64,000 nucleotides of DNA from positions 124,001 to 188,000 of the forward strand of contig JARULB010000007.1 of assembly GCA_029688905.1 (NCBI GenBank). Reading direction: 5' to 3'. Position numbers and translations under genes: made by a program. The notes below the pieces were generated by a model, which was not told the origin of the DNA, ran no database searches, and saw nothing but the letters and a program-made list of their open reading frames with translations. This DNA is from Balneolales bacterium ANBcel1. Lineage in GTDB: Bacteria > Bacteroidota > Rhodothermia > Balneolales > Natronogracilivirgulaceae. The stretch's first letter is position 1. Every line of letters begins with the position of its first letter. Of this stretch, positions 27,788 to 38,353 are shown in pieces.

Positions 27788-29155
27788 ATGCTAACACCCA
27801 CTGAACTTGTAGACAAATACAGCCGCCAGGCGCCAAGATATACCTCCTATCCGTCGGCCCTGCACTTTCAGGAGGTCGAGGACCCGGCAGCTGCGGCGGC
27901 TTTTATCGAACAAAACAACCGTTCCGCACGTCCGCTGTCTCTCTACATACACATCCCTTTCTGTGCATCCCTTTGCTGGTACTGCGGTTGCACCAGGGTT
28001 ATTACCCGCCGACCCGGCGACAGCAGCAAATACCTCCGGAACCTGTTTCGTGAAATGGAGGCGATGAGCAAAAAACTCAATCCGGGCCACCGTATCGTGC
28101 AGGTTCACTTTGGCGGCGGAACACCCACTTTCCTCACACCGCAAGAGCTTCGGGAAACCGGCGAAAAGCTGCATGACCTCTTTCAGTTCGATGAAGATGT
28201 GGAGTTTTCCGTGGAGGTCGATCCCCGTCGCATTTCTGAGGATCACGCGGCCGCACTTGCTGAAATCGGATGTAATCGCGTTTCCATCGGCATCCAGGAC
28301 ATCCACGAAAACGTCCAGGAAGCCATCAACCGGATACAACCGATGGCAGTCAATGAACAGGCGGTGAACTGGTTTCGAAATGCCGGGATTCACCACATCA
28401 ATGTGGATCTGATCTACGGACTTCCGCTGCAGTCCCTGCAAAGTTTCGAACAAACACTTGAAGCTGTGAAGACTCTGGATCCCGACCGGTTCGCCATATT
28501 TCACTACGCGCATGTACCATGGATGATGCCCTCGCAGAAATTGCTGGATCGCTATCCCATGCCGGACGCCCATGAGAAGTTTTCCATGCTCCAGATGATG
28601 GTTGGCAACCTCACCCGCTCCGGCTATACATTCATCGGCATGGACCATTTTGCGAAAACCGGAGACGAACTCTCCCGCGCCCGGGAGAACGGCACCCTTC
28701 AAAGAAACTTCCAGGGATACAGCACACGGGCCGACACCGACATTTACGGCTTCGGCATGTCCTCCATCTCCCAAATCGCAAACGGGTATCTTCAGTCGAT
28801 CAAGGATCTCGATGCATACTACGGGTGCATCGAAGCCGGCCGGCTGCCGTATGTCCGTGAATACCGGCTGACGCGCGATGACGAGATCCGCCGCCATACG
28901 ATTGTCCGGTTGATGTGCGACCTCAAGCTGGATTTCAGCTCAATAAGTGAAACCTGGGGCATTGATGCGGCCTCCTATTTTTCACAGTCTATTGCAGCCC
29001 TTGATGATATGGCTTCCGACGGACTCGTGCAAATGCAGAAAGACGGCCTTCAGGTTACACAGACCGGGCGCCTATTTCTCAGAAACATCGCGACTGCATT
29101 CGACCTCTACTATGCTTCCGGGGAAAACAGCAACAGGTATTCAAAAACTGTTTGA
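27788..29155 (+). CDS. hemN: Oxygen-independent coproporphyrinogen III oxidase (HemN)
   Basis: This 455-residue radical SAM enzyme carries the Fe-S motif C-x3-C-x2-C in HIPFCASLCWYCGC, the HFGGGTPT glycine-rich SAM motif, and the HemN C-terminal domain. The extra cysteine after the motif (WYCGC) marks true HemN rather than HemW. The N-terminal RYTSYPSALHF stretch is also characteristic. It decarboxylates coproporphyrinogen III to protoporphyrinogen IX without oxygen, in the cytoplasm. This supports heme supply under low oxygen, in line with the cbb3 oxidase at the window start. Confidence 0.96.
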   Translation: MLTPTELVDKYSRQAPRYTSYPSALHFQEVEDPAAAAAFIEQNNRSARPLSLYIHIPFCASLCWYCGCTRVITRRPGDSSKYLRNLFREMEAMSKKLNPGHRIVQVHFGGGTPTFLTPQELRETGEKLHDLFQFDEDVEFSVEVDPRRISEDHAAALAEIGCNRVSIGIQDIHENVQEAINRIQPMAVNEQAVNWFRNAGIHHINVDLIYGLPLQSLQSFEQTLEAVKTLDPDRFAIFHYAHVPWMMPSQKLLDRYPMPDAHEKFSMLQMMVGNLTRSGYTFIGMDHFAKTGDELSRARENGTLQRNFQGYSTRADTDIYGFGMSSISQIANGYLQSIKDLDAYYGCIEAGRLPYVREYRLTRDDEIRRHTIVRLMCDLKLDFSSISETWGIDAASYFSQSIAALDDMASDGLVQMQKDGLQVTQTGRLFLRNIATAFDLYYASGENSNRYSKTV

Positions 29156-29237: not shown

Positions 29238-30146
29238 ATGAAGAACTCCAGATACGATGTTCTAATGAAAAATCCTCGAATTTTAGTACCGACCGATCTG
29301 TCGGAGTTAAGCCTTACAGCTTTTGAATCCGCCGGTTACCTTGCGGAAATTCTCGACGGAACGATCATCCCTCTGTATGTTTATCAGCCTGAGAAAGAGG
29401 GTACCAGCTTTCCGGTTGCACCTACACCGCCCCGGAAGATCCAGGATATTGAAAAGGATCTGGACGAGAAGGCCCGGAAATTTGTGAGTGAAGAGTTACT
29501 TGAGCCATGCATTGTCGCCAAGGGCAAACCGTGGAAAGTCATCATGGAAGAGTCGGAAGATGCCGACATTCTGGTGATGACCACTCATGGCAGGTCCGGT
29601 TTTTCGCGGCTGTTTCTGGGTTCGGTCACCGAGCGTGTGGTTCGATTCAGCAAGGCACCGGTACTTCTGGTGGAGAAGGAGTCAAAAATCAAACCGCTGA
29701 GCAGTATCCTTCTCACCACTGATTTCTCCGACCACTCGCTTCAGGCATTTGATTACGCCCGGTCCCTGGTCAAGCAAACCGGGGCTCAGATCCATCTCGT
29801 GCACCTCATCAGCATGGATCATTTCAAAAAAATCACGGCCTTTGAGAATCAGATCGCCCTCATTCAGGAAAGGCTGCACAGTTGGGTTGACGAATACCTG
29901 TCGGATATCCGGTCAAAAATCACCGCTGAGGTACTGCCGGTCGATTCTTCGGTACATGAGGCCATTGTCAAGCTGACCAATCAGAAGAAATACAACCTTG
30001 TGGTGATGTCCACACTGGGTCATAGCGGCCTTGAGTACCTCCGGCTTGGAAGCACCGCCGCCAATGTCCTGCGGCTGGTGAAAACCGCCGTGCTGAGTAT
30101 CAACCCGAAGATGGACGAAGCCATCGGCGATGAACACCGTCAGTAG
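29238..30146 (+). CDS. Tandem universal stress protein (two UspA domains)
   Basis: This 302-residue cytoplasmic protein has two Usp domains. The first has ILVPTDLSELS and the nucleotide motif MTTHGRSGFSRLFLGS; the second has ILLTTDFSDHS and STLGHSGLEYLRLGS. Both therefore retain the G-x2-G-x9-G-S ATP-binding pattern. An internal ATG at 29265 is an alternative start directly before the first beta strand. It precedes a GCS2-CBS fusion gene by 53 bases on the same strand, with a small hairpin between them, so the two may be co-transcribed and linked to energy or redox stress. Confidence 0.92.
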   Translation: MKNSRYDVLMKNPRILVPTDLSELSLTAFESAGYLAEILDGTIIPLYVYQPEKEGTSFPVAPTPPRKIQDIEKDLDEKARKFVSEELLEPCIVAKGKPWKVIMEESEDADILVMTTHGRSGFSRLFLGSVTERVVRFSKAPVLLVEKESKIKPLSSILLTTDFSDHSLQAFDYARSLVKQTGAQIHLVHLISMDHFKKITAFENQIALIQERLHSWVDEYLSDIRSKITAEVLPVDSSVHEAIVKLTNQKKYNLVVMSTLGHSGLEYLRLGSTAANVLRLVKTAVLSINPKMDEAIGDEHRQ

Positions 30147-30151
30147 CCACG

Positions 30152-30171
30152 CATCCGTTCCATGACGGATG
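30152..30171 (+). other. Small hairpin between usp and the GCS2-CBS gene
   Basis: CATCCGT (30152-30158) and ACGGATG (30165-30171) form a 7-bp stem with a 6-base loop just after the usp stop. There is no T-tract, so it is more likely an RNA-stability or processing element than a terminator. Confidence 0.4.
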
Positions 30172-30199
30172 ATACTCCTCACGTCTTATTTCCGGGCTT

Positions 30200-32113
30200 A
30201 TGGAACCTGTCTCCTCTGCTCAAAATCCGGAGAACCTCCGGACCTTCACCAAGTATTTGATCCGGGACCTCAAGGCGCTCGAACAGATGCTTGCGGATGA
30301 TATGTTTGAACGGGATACGAAGCGTATCGGTGCCGAGCAGGAGTTGTTCATCATCGACCGGGCCAGTCGTCCCCACCCCGTCAACACCCAGGTGCTGGAG
30401 GATATCAATCACCCCCACTTTACCCATGAGTTGGCACGGTTCAACCTGGAATTCAACCTGGATCCGCTAACCTTCGGGGGGAACTGCCTGAAGGAACTCG
30501 ACAACCAGCTCAAGTCCCATGTCAAAAAGAGCCGGGAAGCGGCGGAGCTGCACAAGGGGGAAATACTGCTGACCGGATCGCTGACAACCATCAAAAAGTC
30601 GGATCTGGGCCTGGAGAACCTCACTCCCCTGCCACGCTACTACATGCTCAACGATGCGCTCACCCGTGTAAGGGGAGCAGAGCACGAGCTGAAAATCAAA
30701 GGGGCCGACGAGCTTCATGTCAAGCACGACTCCGTGATGATGGAATCCTGCAACACCAGTTTCCAAATTCATTTTCAGGTATCTCGCGACGACTTTGCGC
30801 GCCTCCACAACATCGCGCAGCTGGTCACCGCGCCGGTGCTGGCCGTTGCCGCCAACTCGCCCTTCCTTTTCGGAAAACAGCTCTTGCATGAAACACGTAT
30901 CGCCGTTTTTCAGCAATCCATTGACAACCGGAAGGCGGAGGATTTTGTTAATGAGCGCAAACCCAGGGTACAGTTCGGTTCCGACTGGGTCCATGAGTCG
31001 GTGATGGAGATTTTCAGGGAGGACATTGCCCGCTTCCGGGTGTTATTTGCCACAGACGACATAGAAGATCCGTTTAAAGCACTGGAAGCCGGCCGGGTTC
31101 CCAAACTTGACGCACTCCAGTTGTTCAATGGCACCATTTACCGGTGGAATCGTCCGTGTTACGGTATCACCGGCGGGAAACCGCACCTTCGTATTGAAAA
31201 CCGCGTACTGCCGTCCGGGCCGACCGTGGTGGATGAGGTGGCAAACGCCGCATTCTGGCTGGGTCTGATGGCGGGCGTATCTTCCGGGTACGACGACATC
31301 ACCCGGCTGATCTCCTTTAAGGAGGTGGAGTCCAATTTTCTGAATGCAGCCCGGCAGGGCCTGCTCTCCCAGATCAAATGGATCGACGGAGGCAGCTATC
31401 CGGTACAGGAGCTGGTCTTGAACGAATTGCTTCCGATTGCCCGGCAGGGCCTGGCACAACACAATATTGACGAGGAAGACATCGACTGTTATCTGGGGAT
31501 TATTCAGGAACGGACCAAAAGCGGGCGAAACGGCGCAATATGGCAACTGGAGTCGTATCTCAACCTTGATGACATCTGGAGCCGCAACGAAAAAATGACG
31601 GCGATTGCGGATGCCACCCTGAAACATCAGAAAACGGGCAAGCCGGTTCACACCTGGCCCAAAGCCACCGTCGTCCGAAAGAATCGCTGGGAGAAGGCGT
31701 TTGCCACAGTGGGCCAGTTCATGACCACCGACATCTTCACCCTGAATGAAGACGATATCATCGACCTGGCCGCCAACGTCATGGAATGGCAGAGGATTCG
31801 ACATATCCCCGTGGAGAACCGGGAGCATCAGCTGGTGGGAATGGTTACCTACCGATCGATGATCAGTACCCTGAACAACATCATCGCACGAAACCTCGAC
31901 CACGCCAATGTGTCGGTGAGTAACATCATGGACCGAGAAGTTGTAACCGCCTCGCCTGCAACCCCTTCCACGGAAGCCATAGAACTGATGCAGAACAACG
32001 ATATCTCCAGCCTCCCCGTTGTGGAAAACGGAAAACTGGTGGGCATCGTAACCGAGTACGACTTTACCCGCATCGCCGCCGAACTGTTAAAAGACCGCCT
32101 CAAGAAACGTTAA
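30200..32113 (+). CDS. GCS2-type glutamate-cysteine ligase-like (carboxylate-amine ligase) fused to two CBS domains
   Basis: This 637-residue protein has an N-terminal GCS2-superfamily ATP-grasp-like ligase region of about 490 residues: RIGAEQELFIIDR, FNLEFNLDP, MMESCNTSFQIHFQV and RIENRVLPSGPT. Two CBS domains follow (about 503-560, VGQFMTTDIFTL, and about 575-632, VSNIMDREVVTA). GCS2 enzymes join glutamate, or a related acid, to an amine such as cysteine; the substrate here is not known. The CBS pair probably senses adenine nucleotides. The adjacent ATP-binding tandem Usp protein makes a stress-linked role plausible. Confidence 0.85.
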   Translation: MEPVSSAQNPENLRTFTKYLIRDLKALEQMLADDMFERDTKRIGAEQELFIIDRASRPHPVNTQVLEDINHPHFTHELARFNLEFNLDPLTFGGNCLKELDNQLKSHVKKSREAAELHKGEILLTGSLTTIKKSDLGLENLTPLPRYYMLNDALTRVRGAEHELKIKGADELHVKHDSVMMESCNTSFQIHFQVSRDDFARLHNIAQLVTAPVLAVAANSPFLFGKQLLHETRIAVFQQSIDNRKAEDFVNERKPRVQFGSDWVHESVMEIFREDIARFRVLFATDDIEDPFKALEAGRVPKLDALQLFNGTIYRWNRPCYGITGGKPHLRIENRVLPSGPTVVDEVANAAFWLGLMAGVSSGYDDITRLISFKEVESNFLNAARQGLLSQIKWIDGGSYPVQELVLNELLPIARQGLAQHNIDEEDIDCYLGIIQERTKSGRNGAIWQLESYLNLDDIWSRNEKMTAIADATLKHQKTGKPVHTWPKATVVRKNRWEKAFATVGQFMTTDIFTLNEDDIIDLAANVMEWQRIRHIPVENREHQLVGMVTYRSMISTLNNIIARNLDHANVSVSNIMDREVVTASPATPSTEAIELMQNNDISSLPVVENGKLVGIVTEYDFTRIAAELLKDRLKKR

Positions 32114-37078: not shown

Positions 37079-38353
37079 TCATTCTTTCTTGTCACCGGCA
37101 TTTTCAACGGATGACGGGCTGCCATCCTCCGGTTTGTCATCCAGTTCGATTTCATACCCTTCGGAAAGTGCGGCGATGATGGCGCCCCGTACGATCACTC
37201 CCATAAGTCTGTTTTCGGAATCCAGAACGGCAATCGGACCATAATCCGATTCGTGGTACACATTGATGACGTCACTCAGCGGCATGTCTTCCTGAACGGT
37301 GTACGCTTCACGCATGAGTGACTTGTCAAATGTGGCATCCTCCTCTTTTTTGAAACTTTTCAGATGTTCCGCCAGTTCATCCGCAAGAACATATCCCTTC
37401 AGATGTCTTTTTGCATCGGTAACCATGATGCCGGACAAACCATACCGCCGCATTTTCCGTAACATGGTGCGCGGGCCGTCACTGGTAAAGGCGGTTTCTT
37501 TGGCAGGCTGCATGATGGTTCCGGCTGTCAGAACGGCTGCTCGATCCATATCCTCAACGAACGCTTTGACATAGTCATTGGCAGGCTTCGATATGATTTC
37601 CTCGGCGGAACCAATCTGAACAATGATTCCATCTTTCATAATGGCGATGCGATCGCCGATGCGAAAGGCCTCATCCAGGTCATGCGTAACAAACAGGATG
37701 GTTTTTTTCATGCGGGATTGCAGTTCGATCAGTTCATCCTGCATTTGCCGCCGAATAAGCGGATCAAGGGCGCTGAACGCCTCATCCATAAGAAGAATAT
37801 CGGCATCCACTGCCAGGCCCCGGGCCAGGCCTACCCGTTGCTGCATTCCTCCTGAAAGCTGAGAGGGATAGCTCTCTTCATTCCCTTTGAGACCAACAAT
37901 TTCGATAATTTTACGGGCCTTTTTCTGTCGCTCCTCTTTGTCAACGCCTTGCAGCTCGAGGCCAAACTCAACATTTCCCAACACGGTTCTGTGAGGCAGT
38001 ATGGCAAAGTTCTGAAAAACCATCCCGCAGAAATTTTTCCGCCGGAAATCGCGCAGTTCCTGAGAGCCAAGCTTGACGATATCCGTCCCCTTGATTACGA
38101 TTTCACCCTGGGTTGGTTCATGCAGGCGATTGATCAGGCGCTGGAGAGTCGACTTTCCACTGCCTGAAAGGCCCATGAGCACAAAGGTCTCCCCTTCCCT
38201 GACGGAAAAATTGATATTGTGAACACCCACAACCTGCTTGTGTTTCTCAAGAATTTCATCCTTCGACATTCCCTCCTCAAGCGCTTTGATCGCTTTTTGG
38301 GGATTATCACCGAAAATCTTGAATAGGTTCCTGACCGTAATTATGTCGCTCAT
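37079..38353 (-). CDS. proV: Glycine betaine/proline ABC transporter ATPase (ProV/OpuAA) with CBS pair
   Basis: This 424-residue cytoplasmic ATPase has Walker A (GLSGSGKST), a Q-loop (MVFQNFAILPHRTV), the signature LSGGMQQRVGLARGL, and Walker B (ILLMDEAFSALD). A C-terminal pair of CBS domains follows (from about residue 270). In OpuA the CBS pair senses ionic strength or c-di-AMP and gates transport. AAGGA lies 5 bases before the ATG. An intrinsic terminator between proX and this gene probably lowers its expression relative to the binding protein. Confidence 0.97.
   Translation of the reverse strand: MSDIITVRNLFKIFGDNPQKAIKALEEGMSKDEILEKHKQVVGVHNINFSVREGETFVLMGLSGSGKSTLQRLINRLHEPTQGEIVIKGTDIVKLGSQELRDFRRKNFCGMVFQNFAILPHRTVLGNVEFGLELQGVDKEERQKKARKIIEIVGLKGNEESYPSQLSGGMQQRVGLARGLAVDADILLMDEAFSALDPLIRRQMQDELIELQSRMKKTILFVTHDLDEAFRIGDRIAIMKDGIIVQIGSAEEIISKPANDYVKAFVEDMDRAAVLTAGTIMQPAKETAFTSDGPRTMLRKMRRYGLSGIMVTDAKRHLKGYVLADELAEHLKSFKKEEDATFDKSLMREAYTVQEDMPLSDVINVYHESDYGPIAVLDSENRLMGVIVRGAIIAALSEGYEIELDDKPEDGSPSSVENAGDKKE

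Follow-up and report, generated by a model that had tools for sequence, protein, structure and literature searches.

A 64,000-nucleotide (nt) stretch of the genome of Balneolales bacterium ANBcel1 (contig JARULB010000007.1, positions 124,001 to 188,000, hereafter the window) encodes a ligase of the glutamate-cysteine ligase 2 (GCS2) type with two C-terminal CBS domains, directly behind a gene for a tandem universal stress protein (Usp). We find that the protein belongs to a subfamily of CBS-bearing ligases whose genes, in other genomes, recur beside a gene for a hydrolase of the AstE/AspA type, and that it stands next to the Usp gene through local synteny; the arrangement described in an earlier sequence-only reading of this DNA is confirmed, and its interpretation is partly supported. 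On balance, we lean towards a nucleotide-gated ligase that makes a small amide of the gamma-glutamyl type and is balanced elsewhere by the AstE-type hydrolase. The ligase would activate a carboxylate, with the gamma-carboxyl of glutamate as the likeliest one, and couple it to a small molecule through the amine of the latter, while the CBS pair would sense adenine nucleotides and tune the ligase to the energy state. Several phyla encode an AstE/AspA-type zinc deacylase with the ligase; this deacylase probably cleaves the amide, which would give a make-and-break cycle. GCS2-type ligases of known product (EgtA, plant glutamate-cysteine ligase) use the gamma-carboxyl of glutamate, and AstE splits succinylglutamate. 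Hydrolysis by the AstE homologue is proposed because the acyl part of succinylglutamate resembles a gamma-glutamyl group, and these two likenesses together are the reason for proposing a gamma-glutamyl amino acid as the product. A two-step cycle on one amide fits the genomic data, since ligase and deacylase are kept together in several phyla and, among the neighbours examined, no third gene recurs from phylum to phylum.

The sequence-only reading had placed two Usp domains 53 nt ahead of a GCS2-type ligase carrying two CBS domains, and its coordinates and domain assignments hold: both open reading frames (ORFs) are intact on the + strand, and the domains are found by Pfam. The features are as follows.

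29238..30146, + strand: tandem universal stress protein with two Usp domains, 302 amino acids (PF00582, 147.1 bits in two stretches)
30147..30199, + strand: Usp-ligase spacer of 53 nt (across 16 distinct loci of the window's family, window counted, the spacers measure 51-68 nt and are dissimilar in sequence)
30200..32113, + strand: GCS2-type ligase with C-terminal CBS pair, 637 amino acids (Pfam, structural model and fold comparison)
30200..31690, + strand: ligase catalytic domain, residues 1-497 (28-row alignment; model residues 27-478 superpose on YbdK 1r8g, Z 25.4)
30329..30343, + strand: GhExE motif G44-A-E-Q-E48 in strand 1 of the ligase superfamily (G44, E46 and E48 in 110/110 rows; motif from PMC2588565)
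30764..30772, + strand: [HQ]x[NH] motif Q189-I-H191 (Q189 and H191 in 110/110 rows; motif likewise from PMC2588565)
31196..31204, + strand: ExR motif E333-N-R335 (110/110 rows; P338 at the published Asp position, three after the Arg)
31706..32083, + strand: CBS domain pair, residues 503-628 (Pfam; the nearest folds are AcuB structures bound to AMP, ADP or ATP, Z about 17)
27788-29155, + strand: hemN, upstream of the Usp gene

Pfam scores the ligase with 32 bits against a GCS2 cut-off of 21 and covers residues 189-279 only, so the catalytic domain is a remote GCS2 member, of which Pfam recognises just a part. A full-length domain is backed by the 28-row alignment (window included), in which 26 of the 28 members match GCS2 at E <= 0.01, and by the fold of an AlphaFold2 model (m0462ac5f3c5f) built from 18 sequences, which is of middling confidence (predicted local distance difference test, pLDDT, 69.7; predicted template modelling score, pTM, 0.68). 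The first 480 residues of this middling model superpose on YbdK (1tt4, Z 25.7; 1r8g, Z 25.4). At 19% identity, the model also matches the plant glutamate-cysteine ligase 2gwc over 350 residues (Z 22.7); PafA and Dop are more distant matches (Z 15.8-19.9, 8-10% identity). The signature of carboxylate-amine ligases, as given in PMC2588565, comprises GhExE in strand 1, acids in strands 2-3, [HQ]x[NH] in strand 4 and Ex[RK]x2D in strand 6. Conservation was read from 110 aligned rows, made up of 107 distinct loci and three second copies: GhExE, E84, QxH (189-191) and ExR (333-335) are found in all 110, E77 is found in 109, and D345, near E333xR335, is invariant. By the Pfam cut-off, the motifs of strands 1-4 and the fold, the ligase falls within the superfamily. 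For the catalytic part of the window ligase, the only listed model is TIGR02050 (the YbdK family), which stays far below its curated threshold (19.5 bits against 176.4); no GshA, EgtA or YbdK model reaches its cut-off. Taken together, the data support a ligase of the carboxylate-amine superfamily that has a nearly complete published active-site signature and falls in no named family. It is the sole GCS2 match in the window genome.

The CBS pair scores 91.9 bits with Pfam in two stretches, and the C-terminal 135 residues of the model superpose on nucleotide-bound AcuB (Z about 17). The nucleotide motif of CBS domains is GxxTxxD; it is kept in the second CBS domain of the window (G615-I-V-T618-E-Y-D621), and the first has Ser for the Asp. 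The pair is present in 103 of the 110 rows, and the second domain has T or S at the motif's Thr position in 101 of these 103. The remaining seven rows have no CBS domains: five belong to Bacteroidota family f27, and two come from plasmid records of Actinomycetota. Either a free-standing ligase acquired the CBS sensor, therefore, or the sensor was lost again. Among CBS-less relatives, one on a Streptomyces fungicidicus plasmid (L082, 5965-13434) lies upstream of NiFe hydrogenase genes with DUF5947 and DUF6084 proteins.

The ligase family is widespread and unnamed. In the window's family, 17 of 20 genomes have a ligase or a piece of one, and the other three have CBS-type matches only. The ligase is present in 145 of the 195 genomes of the sample of the class, Rhodothermia (E <= 1e-30), in 116 of the 395 genomes of the phylum sample (E <= 1e-60), in 45/247 genomes sampled around an Acidobacteriota locus and in 57/246 sampled around a Phycisphaerae locus. 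The 107 distinct loci used for neighbourhood analysis (108 rows, since L084 is the same stretch as L003) were hand-picked: within the class, roughly one was taken for each genus, and outside it mostly the loci with the highest scores. Several end at contig edges; phylum labels are those of the phylum at the centre of each search, and L188 and L189 are counted with the window's own order.

The sequence-only reading had proposed a conserved-neighbourhood analysis as a check. This analysis showed that the Usp link is confined to one lineage, and it revealed another recurrent neighbour, an AstE-type deacylase, in several phyla. An AstE homologue is encoded on the same strand within 6 kb of the ligase in 45 of the 107 distinct loci, with 14/22 loci in the Planctomycetota-centred set, 8/18 in other Bacteroidota, 15/42 in the window's class, 7/21 in the Acidobacteriota-centred set, 1/2 in Gemmatimonadota and 0/2 in Actinomycetota. 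Two partner proteins match AstE_AspA_cat (PF24827) with 70.1 and 63.0 bits (cut-off 25) and are thus members of this family, and four of the 45 linked loci, CBS-less ones of family f27, score just 27-34 bits. The HxxE motif, R84, H137 and E193, which we take to be the zinc and catalytic residues of AstE-type deacylases, are found in 23 of 23 seeds. The gene passes an automatic 'directly downstream' filter in 34 of the 45 loci; by our reading of the coordinates, it lies behind a second ligase in three of the others and directly upstream in three, and in the remaining five the start was called too early. Gaps between ligase and AstE are often -4 to +40 nt. When the class sample was queried with a single AstE protein, matches were found in 65 of 195 genomes at 66 places, all in Balneolales family f3, and at 64 of the 66 a ligase is no more than 600 nt away. 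The two exceptions are a match beside a second ligase copy (G204, L219) and a match near the start of a different contig than the ligase (G151).

In genus g18 (for example L201-L204 and L206-L212), two ligase genes and AstE follow one another in a row, and the catalytic residues are kept in the three second copies checked; such tandem ligases may use different substrates or form a hetero-oligomer. One genome (G111) has two separate ligase-AstE units (L212, L213), and the ligase of the second shares only 37% identity with the first-type query ligase. On the ligase tree, the presence of AstE changes at least 13 times, and AstE is also seen among CBS-less rows; the tree is a quick FastTree with many weak forks, and this number shows only that the linkage is scattered. 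Neighbour clustering took ORFs of at least 70 residues, and apart from AstE, the many-locus clusters among the first 45 are antisense ORFs or mostly confined to the class. In a scan of candidates on both sides (upstream 41 of 73, downstream 41 of 51), no family among the first 25 (of 74 and of 55, respectively) occurs in more than three members. Among class genomes with no AstE at that place, several (for example L087, L090, L092 and L094) have a small 4Fe-4S ferredoxin-like gene behind the ligase.

The tight linkage of ligase and hydrolase would also suit a reversible pair that modifies proteins or peptides, comparable to PafA and Dop, which act in this way on Pup: a macromolecule would receive glutamate or an amino acid from the ligase and lose it again through the AstE homologue. 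PafA and Dop have the same fold as the ligase model, but no tag gene recurs among the clustered neighbours of at least 70 residues, a size limit below which a small tag could escape. We regard such a modifying pair as quite improbable.

Several observations weigh against the nucleotide-gated ligase and its make-and-break cycle. AstE was not seen near the ligase in 62 of the 107 loci, the window's included. The window genome has no AstE_AspA match at E <= 0.001, so the cycle cannot run there as described; in that genome the product would have to be stable, go to another use or be cleaved by an enzyme unrelated to AstE. In Balneolales family f3, the ligase-AstE pair sits inside a wider syntenic block with PriA, ScpB and RluB, and for this reason the f3 rows are not independent and amount to about one event; the weight of the AstE linkage rests on the other phyla. 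The existence of CBS-less relatives indicates that CBS control is not essential to the reaction. The nucleotide Asp of the first CBS domain is mostly replaced (D in 10/103 rows), and that of the second is kept in 77 of the 103, with N in another 18; given this retention in the second domain, nucleotide binding at one site or more is plausible. A search of PDB sequences with the 28-row catalytic profile gave no relative at E <= 1. Finally, the published ExRxxD motif lacks its Asp in this family, with P338 at that position in 107 of the 110 rows.

The missing Asp could point to an enzyme without ligase activity that acts as a hydrolase or a sensor, and Dop is an example of amide hydrolysis by the ligase fold. 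But the residues of GhExE, QxH and ExR, and E84, do not vary across several phyla, and many genomes encode a hydrolase of its own beside the ligase; this explanation is very improbable in our view.

The first idea about this locus was that the Usp and the ligase form one functional unit, with the Usp delivering a stress or ATP signal. Membership of the 302-residue protein in the Usp family is clear from its PF00582 score, and the gene lies 51-68 nt upstream of the ligase in the 16 distinct family loci counted above. The ATP-binding Usp motif is G-2x-G-9x-G-S/T. The sequence-only reading had called both domains ATP-binding, and both indeed keep G-9x-GS; the first Gly of G-2x-G is replaced by Thr in domain 1 and by Ser in domain 2, and ATP binding is therefore better described as possible. 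Among 16 relatives examined in the window's family, hemN is upstream in all 16 and the Usp gene stands between hemN and the ligase in 15. The exception (G014, L034) has no Usp at the site, and hemN ends 100 nt before the ligase. The block TonB-hemN-Usp-ligase-QueD-PdxH has the same order in most of these relatives, as have the BCCT and ProWV genes where contigs reach, and since the whole block is syntenic, the adjacency of Usp and ligase alone says little. By clustering, a Usp gene lies within 6 kb of the ligase in only seven of 108 rows, three of them from the window's family, although divergent Usp genes may escape this clustering. The sole surveyed locus outside the window's family with a tandem Usp directly upstream of the ligase on the same strand is L144, from the Acidobacteriota-centred phylum sample, which favours a functional unit if it is not a coincidence or a weak echo. 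Family synteny and the Usp-less locus rule out the Usp as an obligate partner of the ligase. A functional tie between the two is thus not supported; the single unit is unlikely, and the Usp of the window's lineage is probably an incidental local neighbour.

The thiol chemistry suggested by the sequence-only reading is weakened for the window genome. BshC is present (435.7 bits against a cut-off of 265.8), no glutathione synthetase exceeds its cut-off (best 20.5 against 299 bits with TIGR01380, the one model tried), and no EgtD is found at E <= 1e-20 there or in eight other family members of that sample. On these grounds, the glutathione route and the ergothioneine route are rejected for this genome, and the latter is also weak for the family, where egt genes are directly adjacent in 2 of 24 loci. 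An ordinary glutamate-cysteine ligase, making gamma-glutamylcysteine as a thiol or, in the role of EgtA, for ergothioneine, with AstE replacing EgtC and the CBS pair merely modulating, would agree with the model fold, which is that of YbdK and plant glutamate-cysteine ligase. It would also agree with three loci with egt genes upstream: EgtB and EgtD directly before two tandem ligases and AstE (L120, G052), EgtB directly before tandem ligases and AstE (L096, G147), and EgtD 2.7 kb upstream of the ligase (L200). Over 195 genomes, EgtD and ligase occur together in 100, the ligase alone in 45, EgtD alone in 17 and neither in 33, which is co-occurrence above expectation (Fisher p 2e-5, uncorrected for kinship). 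This explanation is countered by the gene content of the window genome, by the 17 genomes that have EgtD without the ligase, by the GshA, EgtA and YbdK models that all stay below cut-off, and by the finding of EgtB next to the ligase in just 2 of the 24 Balneolales loci examined, several of which have little upstream sequence. We give the ordinary glutamate-cysteine ligase a minor share of the probability, and a role in thiol chemistry is possible in some relatives. Of the energy-gated ligase for a glutamyl compound or other amide that had been suggested, the superfamily, the near-complete signature, the nucleotide-type CBS pair and the position outside named families stand; the Usp tie is unsupported and, in this genome, the thiol link is weakened.

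The nucleotide-gated ligase and its partner can be set beside several known systems. YbdK-type ligases (TIGR02050; 1r8g and 1tt4, Z 25.4-25.7) share the fold, but their chains have 352-358 residues, against about 490 in the catalytic part here, and a CBS pair is added here. The plant glutamate-cysteine ligase also shares the fold, and the differences are the CBS pair, the AstE partner elsewhere and the window genome's lack of a glutathione synthetase over cut-off. A likeness to EgtA is seen as a remote TIGR03444 match in 15 of 28 ligase members (E <= 0.01) and as egt genes adjacent in two loci, but no such match is listed for the window ligase, and the window genome has no EgtD. With PafA and Dop, the ligase has in common the superfamily fold and, according to PMC2588565, the GhExE motif; it differs in its low identity (8-10%) and in the lack of a tag gene among neighbours of at least 70 residues. 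The CBS pair has the fold of AcuB and DarB, of which structures exist with AMP, ADP, ATP or Ap4A (AcuB) and with AMP or c-di-AMP (DarB), but here the pair is fused to a ligase and known from sequence and model. Part of this topic may be covered in a review of amidoligases that Iyer and colleagues published in 2009. No paper on a GCS2-CBS ligase or on a ligase-AstE pair was recognised by title, in a search that covered subscription journals thinly. GCS2-like ligases with linked amide hydrolases, either a glutamine amidotransferase-like peptidase or an Aig2-type cyclotransferase, are described by Iyer et al. 2008 (PMC2588565). In those systems the ligase gene is kept beside the hydrolase gene, as it is here, but the partner here is of the AstE/AspA type and the ligase carries the CBS fusion.

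Other features of the locus were also recorded. A QueD-like gene is the next after the ligase in the window, and relatives at about 80% identity in the genome collections are Balneolales or Balneolaceae metagenome-assembled genomes. The 53-nt spacer of the window contains a short hairpin that is not kept in relatives, and a conserved hairpin was therefore rejected. A search for tRNA genes in the window found none, and PADLOC, run on the Usp, the ligase and one AstE partner, matched none of them to anti-phage defence. Six genes beyond the ligase, a ProV-like glycine betaine transporter ATPase (37079-38353, - strand) adjoins ProW and a BCCT transporter; its C-terminal part, by eye, seems to resemble a CBS pair.

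This ligase family, which occurs in 145 of 195 class genomes and in several phyla and keeps its catalytic residues, has no named product. A broader and rather doubtful reading is that an adenine-nucleotide-gated ligase and a dedicated zinc deacylase form a widespread, undescribed energy-state switch in at least Bacteroidota, Planctomycetota, Acidobacteriota and Gemmatimonadota, of which the window's lineage keeps the ligase half and may have Usp-linked control; the amide that this switch makes and breaks may be a gamma-glutamyl amino acid, or it may be a glutamyl mark carried by some larger molecule. The repeated pairing with an AstE-type protein narrows the search for the product to amides suited to both enzymes, and the presence of the CBS pair suggests that the energy state controls the ligase step directly. 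The product could be a new osmolyte, a thiol precursor or a regulatory amide.

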